Shown piece by piece: positions 11,673-18,910 of a stretch of DNA of 64,000 bases (position 1 is the first letter of the stretch; every line of letters begins with the position of its first letter). The translations under genes and the position numbers were made by a program. Below the pieces are notes generated by a model. The model saw only the letters and a program-made list of their open reading frames with translations. It searched no databases and was not told where the DNA came from. Source of the stretch: Candidatus Competibacter phosphatis (GTDB lineage: Bacteria > Pseudomonadota > Gammaproteobacteria > Competibacterales > Competibacteraceae); the NCBI RefSeq assembly GCF_012939995.1, contig NZ_SPMZ01000028.1, positions 1 to 64,000 of the forward strand, in the 5' to 3' direction.

Positions 11673-11819
11673 ACGCTAAGGCTGTCCTTGACCGAATATT
11701 CATCGGTGATACTGGATGTTGATTTGAGGGGATTGAGCGCGAGCGTCCGAATCGTCCGCCAGCCGCAACCACTCGCGCCTACTGGGTCTTGAGCTCTGAA
11801 CAGGGGTACGATCTGGCGA

Positions 11820-12773
11820 TCAGGTCAAATCTCCGATCTGGGCTGCATTCGGATCTCCCAGAACCCGGTTTCTCCCCGCTTGTTTTGCCTGATACAAACG
11901 ATGATCGGCGCTCTCGATCAAGGTCTGGGGTTCCATATGCGGATCGGGCCGCAAGGTCGCCACGCCCATGCTGACGGTGACGAATGGACAAACCGGCGAG
12001 AGCGGGTGATCGCTCCGCCGAGATGCGACTCGTTCCCGCAACCGTTCCGCTATCGCCATGGCGCCGGTGTGATCGGTCGCCGGCAACACACAGGCGAATT
12101 CCTCGCCGCCGTAACGGGCCACCAAATCGGTGCGCCGCGACAATCCTTCCGCCAGTGTTTGCGCCACGGTTTTCAAGCATCGGTCGCCAGCGGGGTGGCC
12201 ATAATGGTCGTTGTAGGCCTTGAAGTAGTCCACATCCGCCAAAATCAGCGAAAGCGGTCTCCCAGTACGAGCCGCGCACAACCATTCGCTCTTTAGGAAC
12301 TCATCGAAGCGGCGGCGGTTGGGGATTCCGGTCAGGCAGTCGGTCAGCGAGAGCGTGGCCAGAAAATCCCGGTAGCGTTTCAATTCCAGATGAATGCCAA
12401 CCCGCAGTTTGACAATGCCGGGGCGCACCGGTTTGGTCAGATAATCGACGGCGCCCAGTTGCAGGCCGATCTCCTCGTCTTCCTCTTGATCCTTGGCGGT
12501 CACGAAGATGACCGGTATTTCCCGAGTGTCTGGATTTTGTTTCAGTCGAACGCAGACTTCGCGTCCATCCATCTCCGGCATGAGGACGTCCAAGAGGATC
12601 AGATCCGGTAACTGCTCCCGCGCCACGGCCAGCGCGTCCGAACCATTGGTGGCGAAGAGAACTCGATAATGATCGGACAGCACATTGTTCAAGATTTCAA
12701 TGTTTTCGATCATATCGTCGACCACCAGAAGGGTCGCTCGCTGTTCACCGAGCAGGGTCATCTTCTCTTCCAT
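11820..12773 (-). CDS. Response regulator with GGDEF output (diguanylate cyclase)
   Basis: The 317-residue protein has an N-terminal receiver with phosphoacceptor Asp62 (LILLDVLMPEMDG) and conserved Lys114 (YLTKP), a short linker, then a GGDEF domain. The active-site motif is GGEEF (222-226), competent for c-di-GMP synthesis. RxxD at 213-216, five residues before it, is an intact inhibitory I-site. The layout resembles a PleD/WspR-type cyclase with one receiver. The start overlaps the end of the upstream hybrid kinase gene by 29 bp (an ATG at 12761 is an alternative), so the kinase is its likely phosphodonor. Last gene of a four-gene operon. Confidence 0.9.
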   Translation of the reverse strand: MEEKMTLLGEQRATLLVVDDMIENIEILNNVLSDHYRVLFATNGSDALAVAREQLPDLILLDVLMPEMDGREVCVRLKQNPDTREIPVIFVTAKDQEEDEEIGLQLGAVDYLTKPVRPGIVKLRVGIHLELKRYRDFLATLSLTDCLTGIPNRRRFDEFLKSEWLCAARTGRPLSLILADVDYFKAYNDHYGHPAGDRCLKTVAQTLAEGLSRRTDLVARYGGEEFACVLPATDHTGAMAIAERLRERVASRRSDHPLSPVCPFVTVSMGVATLRPDPHMEPQTLIESADHRLYQAKQAGRNRVLGDPNAAQIGDLT

Positions 12774-15249
12774 CGAGCACGATTCCCAGGGAGTTGGCCA
12801 TGCAGGTCAGGACCCGCAGCGCCTCGGTAAAATTTAGTCGTTCAATCTGCTGACCGACTTCGTGCAATTGATGTCGGGTTGCAAGGTCCACGGCCTGAGC
12901 CGCCACCTCGCCAAACAGCTTTCTCGCCCGAAGATCGCGCGCTGCAAGCAATTTCGCCAAATCATTCAGCATCTTCGCCCACTGTTGACGGCCAAGCGGC
13001 GGTTCGGTCGCCGATCGCGGAAGTATCGCCGGGTCCGCCGTCGGATTCAGCGCCAGTTCCTGGATGCTTGTCAGTGCCTCGCGCAACGCCACTTCCGCTT
13101 GTGTCAGGCATCGGGGAACGTCATCGGTCCCATCGTTTAGCGCCCGTTCCAAGCTCCGCATCGCCTGTTCCAAGGATACGGCGGAAAGATTTGCCGCTAC
13201 TCCGGTCAAGGCATGCGCCCGATGTATCGCCTGTTTCCAGTCGTCGGCATCCAGGGCTATCCGGATTTCCGCCAGCATGTTGCCGTAGTGGTCGGGAAAG
13301 CGCGCCAAAAGCCGCCGGTGGAGCGCTTCGTTACCGCCAAATCGCCGCTGGCTGGCCACCAGGTCGAAACCCGGCATTGCGGCGGGTAAGGAGGATGCGG
13401 CGGCGGTGTTGGGCGACGCTTCGGCTCCGGGTTCCGCGCCCGAATGGGTGACCGGTTGCGCGGATGTGACCGCCGCCTTCTTAATCCAACGCTGCAAGGT
13501 CCGGTACAAGATCGGGACATTGATCGGCTTGGCCAGATAATCGTTCATGCCGGCGGCCAAGCAGCGTTCTCGTTCCCCAGCCAGCACATTGGCGGTCATC
13601 GCGATCACCGGCAGCTCGGCATGGCGCGGATCGGCTCGCAGCCGCCGAGTGGCTTCGTAACCGTCCAGCACCGGCATCTGCAAGTCCATCAGTACGACAT
13701 CGAATCCGCTGGGATTGGCTCGTACCTGGTCTAGCGCTTCCTGGCCATTGTCGGCCATCCACACCAGCAATCCAGCCTGACGCAGAATATCCCCGGCCAC
13801 TTCCTGATTGATGGGTTGATCCTCCACCAGCAGCACCCGAGCCCCACGCAATTGAGTCGCTTCTTCAAGCGAACGGACCGGCCGTTGGGTGGATTCCGTT
13901 TGGGACGGTTCGGCGTGGCCGAAAGTGGCGGTAAAACGAAAGACGCTGCCTTGGCCCAGGGTGCTGGTCACTTCGATCCGCCCACCCATCATTTCCACCA
14001 ACCGTTGGCTGATCGCCAAGCCTAGCCCGGTGCCGCCGAAGCGCCGGGTGATCGAGGAGTCCGCCTGACTGAACACTTGAAAAAGCCGAGCCTGTTGTTC
14101 CGGTGTAATGCCGATGCCGGTGTCCCGCACCGCGAATTCCAAAATGGTTTGTTCCGAGGAACTCTCCATCATTCGGATAAAAACCTCAACCTCGCCGTGT
14201 TCGGTGAACTTGATCGCGTTTCCCGCCAGGTTCAGCAGTACTTGCCCCAAGCGACCGGGGTCGCCGCGCAGATACTTCGGCACCCGTTCATCCTCATGAA
14301 ACTTGAGTTTCAGTCCCTTCTCGATGGCTTGAAATCCCAGCGCGCTGCGAATTTGGTCCAAGACCGCGCACAAATCGAAGGATACGACCTCAAGCTCCAA
14401 ATGTTCGGCTTCGATCTTGGAGAAGTCCAGGGTATCGTTGACGAGTGTCAGCAGTGTATGCGCCGAGTGTTCCATTTTTCTTAACCGATCATCCAGCCTT
14501 GGTGGCGGCTGGTCTTGCCGGGCCAGGTGGAGCAACCCTTGAATGGCGTTGATCGGAGTACGGATTTCATGACTCATGTTGGCTAGAAACTGACTCTTGG
14601 CCCGATTGGCTTCATGTGCCTCCTGTTCAGCCCGCTGCCGTTCCAGCACCTCGCAGCGCAGGCGATGACCCAAGGCAAGCACCCATCGCCAGACCACCAG
14701 CAGCAGCACCAGAATCAATAGGGACTCGGCGATCAAGGTCCGACGAATGTCTAGCTTCAGCGTCTGAAAAAACAGGGGGCTGACATAAAACCGGGCAATG
14801 CCCAGCAGTTCATCGGTTAAGGGGGCATAAAGTGGGACTTCGACTCGAAAATAGTCTTGGCGATCCATGTGTCCTCGTCCCAAATCCAACGTTCCCTTGG
14901 CGGCGGGTATGACTTCGTAGTCCAACTCCAGCATCAGCCCAACGATAAGAGGCTGACCGGTGGCCGGATCGGTGACGAGCAGAATTTTATCCATTGCCGC
15001 AATCACCTCGTTGACGGAAATCGTATCGCCGCGCGGTTGCAATACTTCCGCCAGAGGAACCGCCTGCGCTTGGGCCAGCAGTTTGGCGTTGGCATCCGCC
15101 GCCAGAAATAAGCGGGGTTGCAGCAAGACGAACCAGTAAACCGCCGTTACGCCCGCTACCGCTAGCACCAGCGACATGAATGACAGCGTGAGCTGGAAAA
15201 CGATCCGGTCGGCTTGCCGCCTGGCATGATGACCGGCGCCTTTAGTCAT
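12745..15249 (-). CDS. Hybrid histidine kinase (periplasmic sensor, HisKA, HATPase, REC, HPt)
   Basis: The 834-residue protein has a membrane helix at about 18-40, a periplasmic sensor of about 125 residues, a second helix at about 172-192, a coiled coil, and HisKA with His227 (MSHEIRTPINAI). The ATPase domain shows its N, G1 and G2 boxes (NLAGNAIKFT, DTGIGI, GGTGLGLAI). A receiver (VLMDLQMPVLDG) and an HPt domain with AIHRAHALTGVAANL follow. It is a full His-Asp-His phosphorelay lacking only the final receiver, which the next gene supplies. The sensor looks like the LapD/CHASE-like regions found beside YfiR-type proteins. The start overlaps the YfiR-like gene by 8 bp. Confidence 0.9.
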   Translation of the reverse strand: MTKGAGHHARRQADRIVFQLTLSFMSLVLAVAGVTAVYWFVLLQPRLFLAADANAKLLAQAQAVPLAEVLQPRGDTISVNEVIAAMDKILLVTDPATGQPLIVGLMLELDYEVIPAAKGTLDLGRGHMDRQDYFRVEVPLYAPLTDELLGIARFYVSPLFFQTLKLDIRRTLIAESLLILVLLLVVWRWVLALGHRLRCEVLERQRAEQEAHEANRAKSQFLANMSHEIRTPINAIQGLLHLARQDQPPPRLDDRLRKMEHSAHTLLTLVNDTLDFSKIEAEHLELEVVSFDLCAVLDQIRSALGFQAIEKGLKLKFHEDERVPKYLRGDPGRLGQVLLNLAGNAIKFTEHGEVEVFIRMMESSSEQTILEFAVRDTGIGITPEQQARLFQVFSQADSSITRRFGGTGLGLAISQRLVEMMGGRIEVTSTLGQGSVFRFTATFGHAEPSQTESTQRPVRSLEEATQLRGARVLLVEDQPINQEVAGDILRQAGLLVWMADNGQEALDQVRANPSGFDVVLMDLQMPVLDGYEATRRLRADPRHAELPVIAMTANVLAGERERCLAAGMNDYLAKPINVPILYRTLQRWIKKAAVTSAQPVTHSGAEPGAEASPNTAAASSLPAAMPGFDLVASQRRFGGNEALHRRLLARFPDHYGNMLAEIRIALDADDWKQAIHRAHALTGVAANLSAVSLEQAMRSLERALNDGTDDVPRCLTQAEVALREALTSIQELALNPTADPAILPRSATEPPLGRQQWAKMLNDLAKLLAARDLRARKLFGEVAAQAVDLATRHQLHEVGQQIERLNFTEALRVLTCMANSLGIVLDGREDDPAR

Positions 15250-15832
15250 GAATCTTGGCTACTTTGAGCAAGAGACTGTTCAGCCGGATACCGGACTGCT
15301 TCAAAGTGGTCTCGTTGATATAGGGCATGACCCGCACCTCGATGGCTAAGCCGGCCAAGGTTCCCTTTTCCACCTGCCCCGCGAACGGGGAAAATACGAT
15401 TCGCTGGTGATCGATGCCATACCGAATGATCGCCTCCAAAGCAGGGTCCGGTAGCGGCTGCACCAGATAAATGGCTGCTGGCGTTCGCTGCCGCAACTCC
15501 TTGAGATGAGCGAGATCGGTGAGAGTGATCTGGATGGGAAAATTTCTGATCTTGCCTTGCTCGCTACCGCGACCCGATTCTTGCAGCGCCGTGGCGAATT
15601 GCTCGGCCTGGGTCCGATCATCCTGATAGACCAAGGCCAATTCCAACCGGCCTTCGGCATTCACTTTCTCCGCCAAATCCCGATCCGCCGCCAGCATGGT
15701 GCGAAACAGGCGCAGCCCGATCTGAACCCGTTGTTCCTGCGGACCGCCCAACGCCCCATGCAAAACGCTCAGGAAGCCCAGCAGGATTCCCAACAACAAT
15801 GACAGATGGTTCGGCGAGCGAGAACCGGGCAT
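15242..15832 (-). CDS. YfiR/DUF4154-like periplasmic protein
   Basis: About 196 residues from the ATG at 15832, with a signal peptide (LSLLLGILLGFLSVLHGALG). An in-frame ATG at 15874 overlaps the TonB receptor gene but would put 14 polar residues before the signal. The mature domain ends IEVRVMPYINETTLKQSGI and NSLLLKVAKI, which fits the YfiR (DUF4154) family ending. YfiR proteins restrain a membrane partner that controls c-di-GMP. Here the partner would be the neighbouring hybrid kinase instead of a membrane cyclase. Family assignment is by pattern, not by a search. Confidence 0.65.
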   Translation of the reverse strand: MPGSRSPNHLSLLLGILLGFLSVLHGALGGPQEQRVQIGLRLFRTMLAADRDLAEKVNAEGRLELALVYQDDRTQAEQFATALQESGRGSEQGKIRNFPIQITLTDLAHLKELRQRTPAAIYLVQPLPDPALEAIIRYGIDHQRIVFSPFAGQVEKGTLAGLAIEVRVMPYINETTLKQSGIRLNSLLLKVAKIHD

Positions 15833-15870
15833 TGTGCAACGATTACTCCAGCCATTCCGGGCGGGCGGCA

Positions 15871-17769
15871 TCAAAAGTCATACGAAATCTGTCCCCAGAT
15901 CAGGCTATCGGGAAAATCGGAAGTGATCACGCGGAGCGGACCTCCGATCAGGGAGCGCTGATCCGCCTGCAAAAGATTGCGCACCCCCAGCCGCAGCGTC
16001 AGTCCTTTTGTCCAGATATCGAACAGGTTCAGGGTGACGGCGACCCGGTGTTCCGCTGCGGAATCCACGCTCGCGGCATGGCGTTCGCCTATATAGTTCC
16101 AATAAGCAGTGAGCAGCATTCGGTCGGTGGGCCGGTAGAACAAGGCCAGGTTCCCTAGCCAATCGGTGGTACCAGGATCTTGGTTATTGGTTCTTTCGCC
16201 GGGAGGTAGCATGCGACCGTCTCGGCTATCGCTGTAAGAGAGATTGAACGAGGACTTGAACTGAGGGGACCATTGTTGTTCCCATTCCAGTTCCACGCCC
16301 GCTGTCCGTGATGAACCGACGTTGCCAAAATCGAAACTGGGCGATCCCAAAGGGGTGATATGATTTTCCATCTGGGAATGAAACAGTGTCAGCCGCAGCA
16401 CCCGATCCGCTAGGCGATTGATGTAGCTGAGTTCGGTGGTTGCCACGGTTTCCGGCTCCAGATCAATCTGGGTATTGTTCGGAAATAGCTCCCAGAATGT
16501 CGGTGCTCTGTAGCCTTCGGCATACTGGGCTTTCAGAATATGGACATCCGAGAGTCGCCACACGGCGGCCAAACGAGGGGTGAGGAGATTCAGATCAAGA
16601 TCGTCGCGATGGTCGAAACGCAGACCGGCGGTGATCGACAGCCGGTCGGACGCCTCATACTGATCCTGTAGGCTGATACCGTAGTAACGCCAGTTTACAT
16701 CGCTCTGATTCACCGCCGGAGGTCGGGGGTTGTTGGAGGGAGGACTGGGTGACGCTTTAAAAGCTTCCTCGATACGAGTGTCTGCATACGAGAACTGCGC
16801 TAACCAGCGATGACGTTCCATCCCCCGCCAGGAAAGTTCCCCGCGCCCTTCCCAGGTGTGCCCCAGAAAGTGCTGACCCCTTGTCTCAAAATCATTATCC
16901 AGGTAAGAACCATACAGGTTCGCGGTGGTGTTCGCCGTCAGTTCGAAGGTTTGACGCGCCTCGAAGGCCTCGGTGCGTTCGTTGTAGCCTACCCCCTGGT
17001 CATTTTGATAGTCGCGATGAATGGCCTGAGCGGTGAGTTGGAATCCCCGATGCGCAAAGATGGCGATACCGGATGGTTGGTCGTCCTGAGCGTGGAGGCC
17101 GACCTGGGCTTCCACCGAATTACCGGTTAGACCGGCAATATTGAGACTGAACCGGGTGGCGTCGTCCTCACTTCGATAAGCATACTGTCCTCCGAGCGTG
17201 GTCGTGCCATGTTCGTCCACCCGCGCGAATGTTCGAGTATTCTCTTTGCGGGTCAGAATATTGAGTACCCCATTATAGGCATAGTCGCCGTACAGGATCG
17301 CGCCAGGACCCCGGATAAACTCGATGCGATCCACCTGCTCGATCGGCAGGGATAATGCTTGGGAGGAAAGCCCAGAATTGTCTCGACTCATTGGCACCGA
17401 GTTCAACAGCACCTTGATATTGCCGGAGTTAAACGGAGCGCTGAATCCTCGGACCGCCACCAGCAAACCTCCCTGACCTCCCTGGTTGATCATTACGCCG
17501 GGAATCAGGGCCAGCGCGTCCCAGACCGTGCGCATGCCCAGTGCTTCCAAATCCCGGCCTTGCAAAACCGTCACCATGCCTGGCACATAATCGGCGTTCA
17601 GTCGGTTTTTGGTGGCGATTTCGGTGCTTTCGTCCAACACCTGCATTAGTTCCCTCAACCATTGTTCGTCTTCGCTGGCTGGGACAGCGGCCAAATCAGC
17701 GGAAGCTTCCTCGGCCAATGATGGGATACTAATGCTCAGCGAGAACGTTGTTGCCAGCACCCATTTCAT
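15871..17769 (-). CDS. TonB-dependent outer-membrane receptor
   Basis: About 632 residues from the ATG at 17769, chosen because it gives a clean signal peptide (MKWVLATTFSLSISIPSLAE). A plug domain follows (VPGMVTVLQGRDLEALG, ALALIPGVMINQ, RIEFIRGPGAILYGDYAYNG), then a beta-barrel ending in aromatic residues (LIWGQISYDF). The TonB box is not obvious; EIATKNRL is the nearest candidate. It is first in an operon with YfiR-like, hybrid kinase and GGDEF genes, so it more likely works as a ligand gate for signalling than as a simple importer. The ligand cannot be read from sequence, and no siderophore or cobalamin genes lie nearby. Confidence 0.88.
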   Translation of the reverse strand: MKWVLATTFSLSISIPSLAEEASADLAAVPASEDEQWLRELMQVLDESTEIATKNRLNADYVPGMVTVLQGRDLEALGMRTVWDALALIPGVMINQGGQGGLLVAVRGFSAPFNSGNIKVLLNSVPMSRDNSGLSSQALSLPIEQVDRIEFIRGPGAILYGDYAYNGVLNILTRKENTRTFARVDEHGTTTLGGQYAYRSEDDATRFSLNIAGLTGNSVEAQVGLHAQDDQPSGIAIFAHRGFQLTAQAIHRDYQNDQGVGYNERTEAFEARQTFELTANTTANLYGSYLDNDFETRGQHFLGHTWEGRGELSWRGMERHRWLAQFSYADTRIEEAFKASPSPPSNNPRPPAVNQSDVNWRYYGISLQDQYEASDRLSITAGLRFDHRDDLDLNLLTPRLAAVWRLSDVHILKAQYAEGYRAPTFWELFPNNTQIDLEPETVATTELSYINRLADRVLRLTLFHSQMENHITPLGSPSFDFGNVGSSRTAGVELEWEQQWSPQFKSSFNLSYSDSRDGRMLPPGERTNNQDPGTTDWLGNLALFYRPTDRMLLTAYWNYIGERHAASVDSAAEHRVAVTLNLFDIWTKGLTLRLGVRNLLQADQRSLIGGPLRVITSDFPDSLIWGQISYDF

Positions 17770-18283
17770 CCAACATCTTGGCCTGTCACTATGGTTTATC
17801 ACATCACGGGTGATTTCAATTTTCCGGCGGGCACGGCAGATGGTCACCATTTCATGGATCATCATCGTGTTTTACTCCGGTTCACCATATCTCGACTATT
17901 GCCATTCGATTTCATGAAAAATCAACTGGTCACGGATACCCATCCACAACTTTCATTATTAAGCAAAGTCAAATGACCAGACAAAATTTTCCAGGTTGGT
18001 GGCCAAACAGTTAATGTTAGGCCATGGTGTTCCTCTCTGATTGACGGAATCGCCATTTCGAGTGACCCCGGTGCTCTGTGTCGCTTCTCTTGGTCAAGAA
18101 TGAAAAGCCACAATTCGAAAAGAATTGCCATGGTGTCGACCAGTAGTGGCGGATGGTCGAGCCTGAGTTTGTCCGACAGTCTGAGAGTCGACCAAAATCT
18201 GGGTTGGATCGAGACTGGACGTGCATGTATCCCCCGCCGAAATCGAGGATGCGGGGAAGGTCGTTGGATGGCGAGGAGAAACC
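17770..18283. other. 514-bp gap between divergent TonB-receptor operon and phosphatase gene
   Basis: No convincing gene is seen. The stretch is less GC-rich than its surroundings and should hold both divergent promoters. Visible items are a direct repeat GTCGACCA at 18135-18142 and 18187-18194, and a good ribosome site (GAGGAG) before the ATG at 18284. Short open frames here lack a ribosome site and any recognisable family. Confidence 0.5.
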
Positions 18284-18910
18284 ATGAAGCACCCGCAATC
18301 TTTAACCGCATGGTCCTGGCGCCTGAACTGGGACACGATCCGACACGATCTGACGATCGGTAGCTGCCCGCGTGGCCCGGCCGATCTCGATCGACTCCAG
18401 GCCGAAGCCCGGATTTCGGCGGTGCTGTCGTTGCAGCACGACGAGTGCCTGGAAAAATTGGAAATCGATTATCCGCGACTCGCGCGTCACGGCCGTGCCC
18501 AGGGTCTGCGCATGGAACGCAGCCCGATGCGCGATTTCGAGCCCGAGGACCAGCGCCGCCGCTTGCCCGAGGCCGTTCGGATTCTGCACGATCTACTCAG
18601 CCAGGGTCATCGGGTTTATTTGCACTGCACCGCCGGCATCAACCGTTCGTCGCTGGTGGCGGTGGCCTATCTGACCTGGATCGAAGGCCAGTCGCTGGAC
18701 GACGCCATGGCCCTGCTGCAAGGCGCCCGACCGGAAGTCAGTCCTTACTGGGACGCTTACGAAGGATGCGGGCAGGATCTGATTGCCCGCCATGCCGACC
18801 AAATTCGTCAGCGCATCGCCGAACTGAGCCGCCAAGACCCTGGACGGAGCGCCAAAATCCACCGGTCGCGGGCGGAACGGGAAATAATCCGGACCGTGCT
18901 GATCGGCTGA
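18284..18910 (+). CDS. Dual-specificity phosphatase resembling plant glucan phosphatases SEX4/LSF2
   Basis: The ATG at 18284 has GAGGAG just upstream. The 208-residue phosphatase domain has the signature HCTAGINRS (Cys115, Arg121) and general acid Asp84 (MRDFEPED). It begins with GSCPRGPADLDRL, and the sequence LSLQHDECLEKLEIDYPRL follows. Those features, with the CTAGxxR loop and the R-LPEAV helix, are the layout I recall for SEX4 and LSF2, which dephosphorylate starch. No carbohydrate-binding module is present, so it is closer to LSF2. Glycogen phosphate removal is a reasonable inference; a protein or RNA phosphatase role is not excluded. No glycogen genes lie nearby. Confidence 0.75.
   Translation: MKHPQSLTAWSWRLNWDTIRHDLTIGSCPRGPADLDRLQAEARISAVLSLQHDECLEKLEIDYPRLARHGRAQGLRMERSPMRDFEPEDQRRRLPEAVRILHDLLSQGHRVYLHCTAGINRSSLVAVAYLTWIEGQSLDDAMALLQGARPEVSPYWDAYEGCGQDLIARHADQIRQRIAELSRQDPGRSAKIHRSRAEREIIRTVLIG

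Follow-up and report, generated by a model that had tools for sequence, protein, structure and literature searches.

A bacterial dual-specificity phosphatase of likely LSF2/SEX4 lineage in Candidatus Competibacter phosphatis

The window, the 64,000-nucleotide stretch of Candidatus Competibacter phosphatis DNA analysed here, carries on its forward strand an open reading frame of 208 codons plus a stop, exactly where an earlier note made from the sequence alone had placed a glucan phosphatase gene (Table 1). The gene is real and under purifying selection. Its product is 53-86% identical to its near relatives, and dN and dS are 0.07 and 0.44 against the nearest orthologue and 0.23 and 1.49 against a third orthologue, values that show selection maintaining the protein. 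The gene seems to stand alone. Its neighbours on both sides are encoded on the opposite strand: upstream a TonB receptor, a 210-aa protein with no assigned Pfam family and a hybrid histidine kinase, downstream a 330-aa protein, likewise with no Pfam family, and another histidine kinase. The upstream genes form a block of about 6.4 kb (11790-18180) that separates the phosphatase from sequence resembling the upstream flank in two relatives (L022 and L023). In these the flank lies only about 0.5-1 kb from the phosphatase, so the block looks either inserted in the window or deleted in the relatives. No conserved glycogen operon surrounds the phosphatase, whose neighbours differ from genus to genus; a GH57 plus GH63-like gene near one Contendobacter copy only, and a nucleotidyl transferase adjoining another copy, are isolated cases. 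Phage, plasmid and viral-contig origins were considered and rejected: there was no phage match, plasmids gave just three weak DSP matches and none for two of the wider homologues, and viral contigs held only distant DSPs (27-30% identity).

Table 1. Position and basis of the phosphatase gene and its features in the window
Feature	Position	Strand	Basis
LSF2/SEX4-like dual-specificity phosphatase gene	18284..18910	+	Translation, Pfam DSPc, PDB ranking, model
Ribosome-binding site GAGGAG, few bases 5' of ATG 18284	18270..18283	+	Sequence
Residues 10-16, WSWRLNW: N-terminal aromatic segment that may correspond to LSF2 Y83/Y85 (alignable only with a gap)	18311..18331	+	Alignment, PMC5779698 list, inference
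Residues 49-63, SLQHDECLEKLEIDY: recognition loop, K58/L59 at the positions of LSF2 Y135/W136	18428..18472	+	Alignment
Residues 84-85, DF: predicted general acid D84 (LSF2 D161) and F85 (LSF2 F162, aromatic channel)	18533..18538	+	Role inferred from LSF2/OsttaDSP
Residues 114-121, HCTAGINR: phosphate-binding loop with nucleophile C115 and R121	18623..18646	+	Translation, alignment
Residues 168-208: C-terminal helical extension of LSF2-like length, without significant sequence similarity to LSF2	18785..18907	+	Model, fold match, shuffle test

The protein falls among the DSPc cysteine phosphatases, as it scores 58.8 bits against PF00782 (6.4e-16; cut-off 33.5) and contains the HCx5R motif in the form HCTAGINR. 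The same Pfam scan also matches the bacterial family Tc-R-P and detects no carbohydrate-binding module. All the motifs quoted in the earlier note, GSCPRGPADLDRL, LQHDECLEKLEIDYPRL, CTAGINR and RRRLPEAV, are found in the translation. CTAGINR had been taken there as a plant-like signature; the loop is indeed present, but it departs at one position from the CxAGxGR of LSF2, SEX4, laforin and OsttaDSP, N120 replacing the glycine. H114, C115, G118 and R121 are invariant in the family, D84 is likewise invariant among near relatives, and the sequence indicates that the protein is probably an active phosphatase. Taking residue roles from LSF2 and SEX4 (PMC5779698, PMC6243121), we envisage a cytosolic, cysteine-dependent phosphatase of dual-specificity fold. 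By the chemistry of the family, nucleophilic attack on the phosphate would come from C115, with R121 and the amides of the loop keeping it in place, and D84 would protonate the leaving group.

What are the closest relatives of this protein? In a sequence ranking of the whole PDB the list is headed by LSF2 (1e-25), SEX4 (1.5e-19), LSF1 (1e-14) and laforin (7e-13), and the first phosphatase that does not act on glucan follows at 4.6e-9. A profile of 12 family sequences returns the same order (1e-34, 4.5e-31, 1.5e-23 and 3.9e-20), with glucan phosphatase matches down to 3e-19 and the next phosphatase at 3e-13; in bits, the glucan phosphatases run from 123 to 73 and the next phosphatase reaches 53. 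Local alignment with LSF2 scores 254, with 37% identity across 154 columns, and the best of 300 shuffles scores 49, so the likeness is not a product of chance. Three ordinary bacterial DSPs of other subfamilies, used as controls, gave top PDB matches to MKP3, PTPMT1 or a bacterial DSP, and neither LSF2 nor SEX4 is among their matches. With LSF2 as query, SEX4 is found at 3e-40 and LSF1 at 4.5e-27, and with laforin as query LSF2 is found at 9e-9; compared with these values, 1e-25 places the window phosphatase roughly as near to LSF2 as LSF1, and much nearer than laforin. The AlphaFold model (pLDDT 91.1, pTM 0.87) has LSF2 as its closest fold (Z 24.7 over 180 residues, rmsd 3.0), then SEX4 (23.7) and laforin (22.1/20.2), with Tk-PTP as the best other phosphatase (19.1) and PTPMT1 among the next best folds; Foldseek gives an order that agrees with the Z scores. 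The fold match extends to LSF2 residue 278, and beyond the general acid the two proteins have in common DF, then R and LP. Sequence homology of the C-terminal tail to LSF2 was considered and set aside (shuffle p 0.65). The profile search and structure model that the earlier note had suggested thus both place the glucan phosphatases above all other phosphatases, and PTP or DUSP families without glucan sites, which the note had named as the outcome that would tell against it, are not the best matches.

Homologues were sought in samples of 369 Gammaproteobacteria genomes and 398 Pseudomonadota genomes. The first sample yielded strong homologues in 9 genomes of three further families (here f191, f223 and f227) and one weak match, the second two weak DSP matches only. 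For the strong homologues, too, LSF2 is the best PDB match (1.7e-34). In maximum-likelihood trees the family of the window phosphatase joins f227 (support 96/94 and 98/96), the bacterial homologues group with LSF2, SEX4 and LSF1, laforin comes next and ordinary DSPs stand apart. Support for the deeper branches is only about 83-86: the clade of glucan phosphatases and bacterial homologues receives 83/81 (86/80 in an initial tree), short of the starred level and with a weakly supported inner order, and neither a plant plus laforin clade (AU p 0.31) nor a purely bacterial clade is rejected. The use of laforin as an outgroup for ancestral glucan function was abandoned because the tree is too weak for it. 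The claim that the protein is closer to plant starch phosphatases than to ordinary bacterial DSPs is therefore borne out by sequence, profile and fold, and moderately by phylogeny, and the window phosphatase is likely a bacterial branch of the LSF2/SEX4 lineage. Its relatives in named genomes belong to Candidatus Competibacter, Contendobacter and other Competibacteraceae MAGs, with a patchy distribution: a clear copy occurs in 13 of 37 Competibacteraceae genomes, and in a 97% complete genome of the window's genus the sole match is a weak one, to a DSP that looks unrelated. The gene is thus not needed for glycogen turnover as such. A Competibacter-type copy of about 80% identity also lies on a contig labelled Phycisphaerales bacterium GAO1 (L029, JACSSB010000371.1, 5485-5769); what appears to be the same fragment is present in a genome of the window's genus (G004), so the label is probably wrong. 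The window's own genome encodes a second, weaker DSP-like protein of 231 aa with the motif VHCHMGRSRS (C14:230838-230981; L002 1321-2016); next to it, on the same strand, lies a 337-aa ORF.

How might such an enzyme hold a glucan? The aromatic channel of LSF2 is made up of Y83, Y85, Y135, W136 and F162 (PMC5779698). In the alignment only F162 is surely kept; Y83 and Y85 have no gap-free aromatic counterpart, W10 and W12 being possible, unaligned candidates. We conjecture that W10, W12 and the conserved Y63, which is W in most other bacterial families of the lineage, could play a channel-like part. R153 of the LSF2 site SBS2 is retained and M155, R157 and W180 are not; SBS3 is not alignable. 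The active enzyme OsttaDSP likewise retains only R153 of SBS2 unchanged (PMC5779698), so that the missing SBS2 weighs little against glucan binding. The LSF2 channel is thus for the most part not conserved in the window phosphatase, and since the defining binding features tested are not there we do not file the protein among the glucan phosphatases proper.

The Candidatus Competibacter group are glycogen-accumulating organisms of activated sludge. The window's own genome contains a glycogen phosphorylase and eight CBM48 domains in seven frames, in keeping with the earlier note's suggestion that the enzyme fits a glycogen-storing bacterium. A profile search of this genome placed no CBM48, phosphorylase or Glyco_transf_5 match on the window's contig, which agrees with the note's remark that glycogen genes are missing from the window. 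The only Glyco_transf_5 (GlgA-type) match in the genome is weak (E 1.8e-8; C95:78423-78671, L041), odd for a glycogen accumulator, and may reflect another route of glycogen synthesis or a missing contig. In each of nine further Competibacteraceae genomes that bear the DSP there are 6-9 CBM48 domains, and phosphorylase and a CBM48 protein both occur in the sister group f227. In three f191 genomes with a homologue (92-94% complete) neither phosphorylase nor CBM48 enzymes were detected; in three f223 genomes with a homologue phosphorylase was not detected, and each has one long CBM48 protein. The lineage at large is thus not bound to glycogen. No glucan, water dikinase was found in the window's own genome, where the sole PF01326 (PPDK_N) protein looks like pyruvate, phosphate dikinase and was rejected as a candidate; the genome is 94% complete, so the enzyme may have been missed. 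For mammalian glycogen, too, no phosphorylating agent is known (PMC13011383).

What, then, would the enzyme do in the cell? Phosphoglycogen is the leading hypothesis for a single substrate, and our preferred explanation, to which we assign a probability of roughly 0.4, is that a phosphatase of the LSF2/SEX4 lineage clears phosphate from glycogen or malto-oligosaccharide. The most likely single substrate would be glycogen or malto-oligosaccharide bearing phosphate monoesters in the glycogen-accumulating host, and removal of the phosphate would let phosphorylase and debranching enzymes pass. The lineage, the glycogen-based host, F85 at the position of LSF2 F162 and the co-occurrence of phosphorylase and CBM48 in f227 make this the best single guess. 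Against it stand the replacement of Y135/W136 by K58/L59, the CTAGINR loop, the lack of a CBM (shared with LSF2), the dikinase that was not seen, the patchy distribution, the lack of a conserved glycogen operon and, most telling, the f191 and f223 homologues in hosts without detectable phosphorylase.

These last homologues, together with the largely missing channel aromatics, also favour a phosphatase of the LSF2 lineage acting on phosphoproteins (Tyr/Ser/Thr), whose plant likeness would reflect ancestry before or without glucan specialization. The two histidine kinases near the gene fit such a role, and a tree in which a plant plus laforin clade survives cannot set glucan function at the common node; every glucan phosphatase is nevertheless closer in sequence and fold than any protein phosphatase of known structure, and we consider this unlikely, though deserving serious attention. 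Action on some other phosphorylated sugar or lipid (a sugar phosphate, exopolysaccharide, phosphatidylglycerophosphate or glycerophospho compound) seems improbable. Such a reading would draw on PTPMT1 among the next best folds, on the nucleotidyl transferase beside one relative's copy and on f191, where the homologue is followed in the same order in two genomes (L077 9652-13708, L078 9250-13448) by an FGGY sugar kinase, a glycerophosphodiester phosphodiesterase and an FAD-dependent oxidoreductase, which may hint at another substrate in that family; however, gene context is not conserved between families and PTPMT1 is a clearly weaker match than LSF2. That the protein is catalytically weak or a scaffold, like plant LSF1 with its likewise deviant loop CTTGFDR and its description as inactive (PMC13011383), is very improbable given that H114, C115, R121 and D84 are all in place.

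With the glycogen reading kept as the preferred one, we advance with more reserve a bolder proposal, namely that glycogen-accumulating bacteria have phosphorylated glycogen and that this would be the first bacterial glucan phosphatase, an LSF2-type enzyme that removes the phosphate by gripping the glucan through residues other than those of plants, and that the plant enzymes descend from, or share a root with, the bacterial family. A 2009 paper judged the existence of bacterial glucan phosphatases unlikely, and one from 2025 continues to describe laforin as the sole glycogen phosphatase known (PMC12834914). The accessible part of a 2024 review of prokaryotic alpha-glucan enzymes contains none of the terms glucan phosphatase, laforin and water dikinase (PMC11046441). 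In the literature searched, the phrase 'bacterial glucan phosphatase' did not turn up in any paper, and within that literature this branch of the LSF2/SEX4 lineage looks undescribed. Should glycogen indeed be dephosphorylated, the enzyme would be the first of its kind in bacteria. An LSF2-like family in glycogen-cycling hosts makes storage-glucan dephosphorylation in bacteria directly testable and bears on the origin of the plant starch phosphatases, and its hosts compete with phosphate-accumulating bacteria in wastewater treatment.

Set beside known systems, the window phosphatase shares the cysteine phosphatase fold and chemistry with bacterial and archaeal DSPs (Tk-PTP, ShufPTP, PRK12361 and Pfam Tc-R-P), but these are clearly weaker matches and do not have the recognition-loop and post-acid features common to LSF2, SEX4 and the window phosphatase. 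Human laforin (PDB 4r30/4rkk; fold Z 20-22) shares the GSCPR start, the QAV/EAV helix and the HCxAGxxRS loop, but identity is 28%, its CBM20 has no counterpart here and its general-acid loop, DMSTEGR, is unlike that of the window phosphatase. Arabidopsis SEX4 (PDB 3nme/4pyh) is 32% identical in the DSP domain and has a similar recognition loop pattern (LQ-D--LE); in SEX4 a CBM48, absent from the window phosphatase, shapes the substrate pocket. Arabidopsis LSF2 is a C3-specific starch phosphatase without a CBM. It differs in its loop, CSAGLGR as against CTAGINR, in Y135/W136, which give way to K/L, and in the SBS residues checked, which are mostly not kept; with its DSP-only architecture, similar length, C-terminal extension, F162 and catalytic C, R and D, LSF2 (PDB 4kyq) is the best match to the bacterial protein in sequence and fold.
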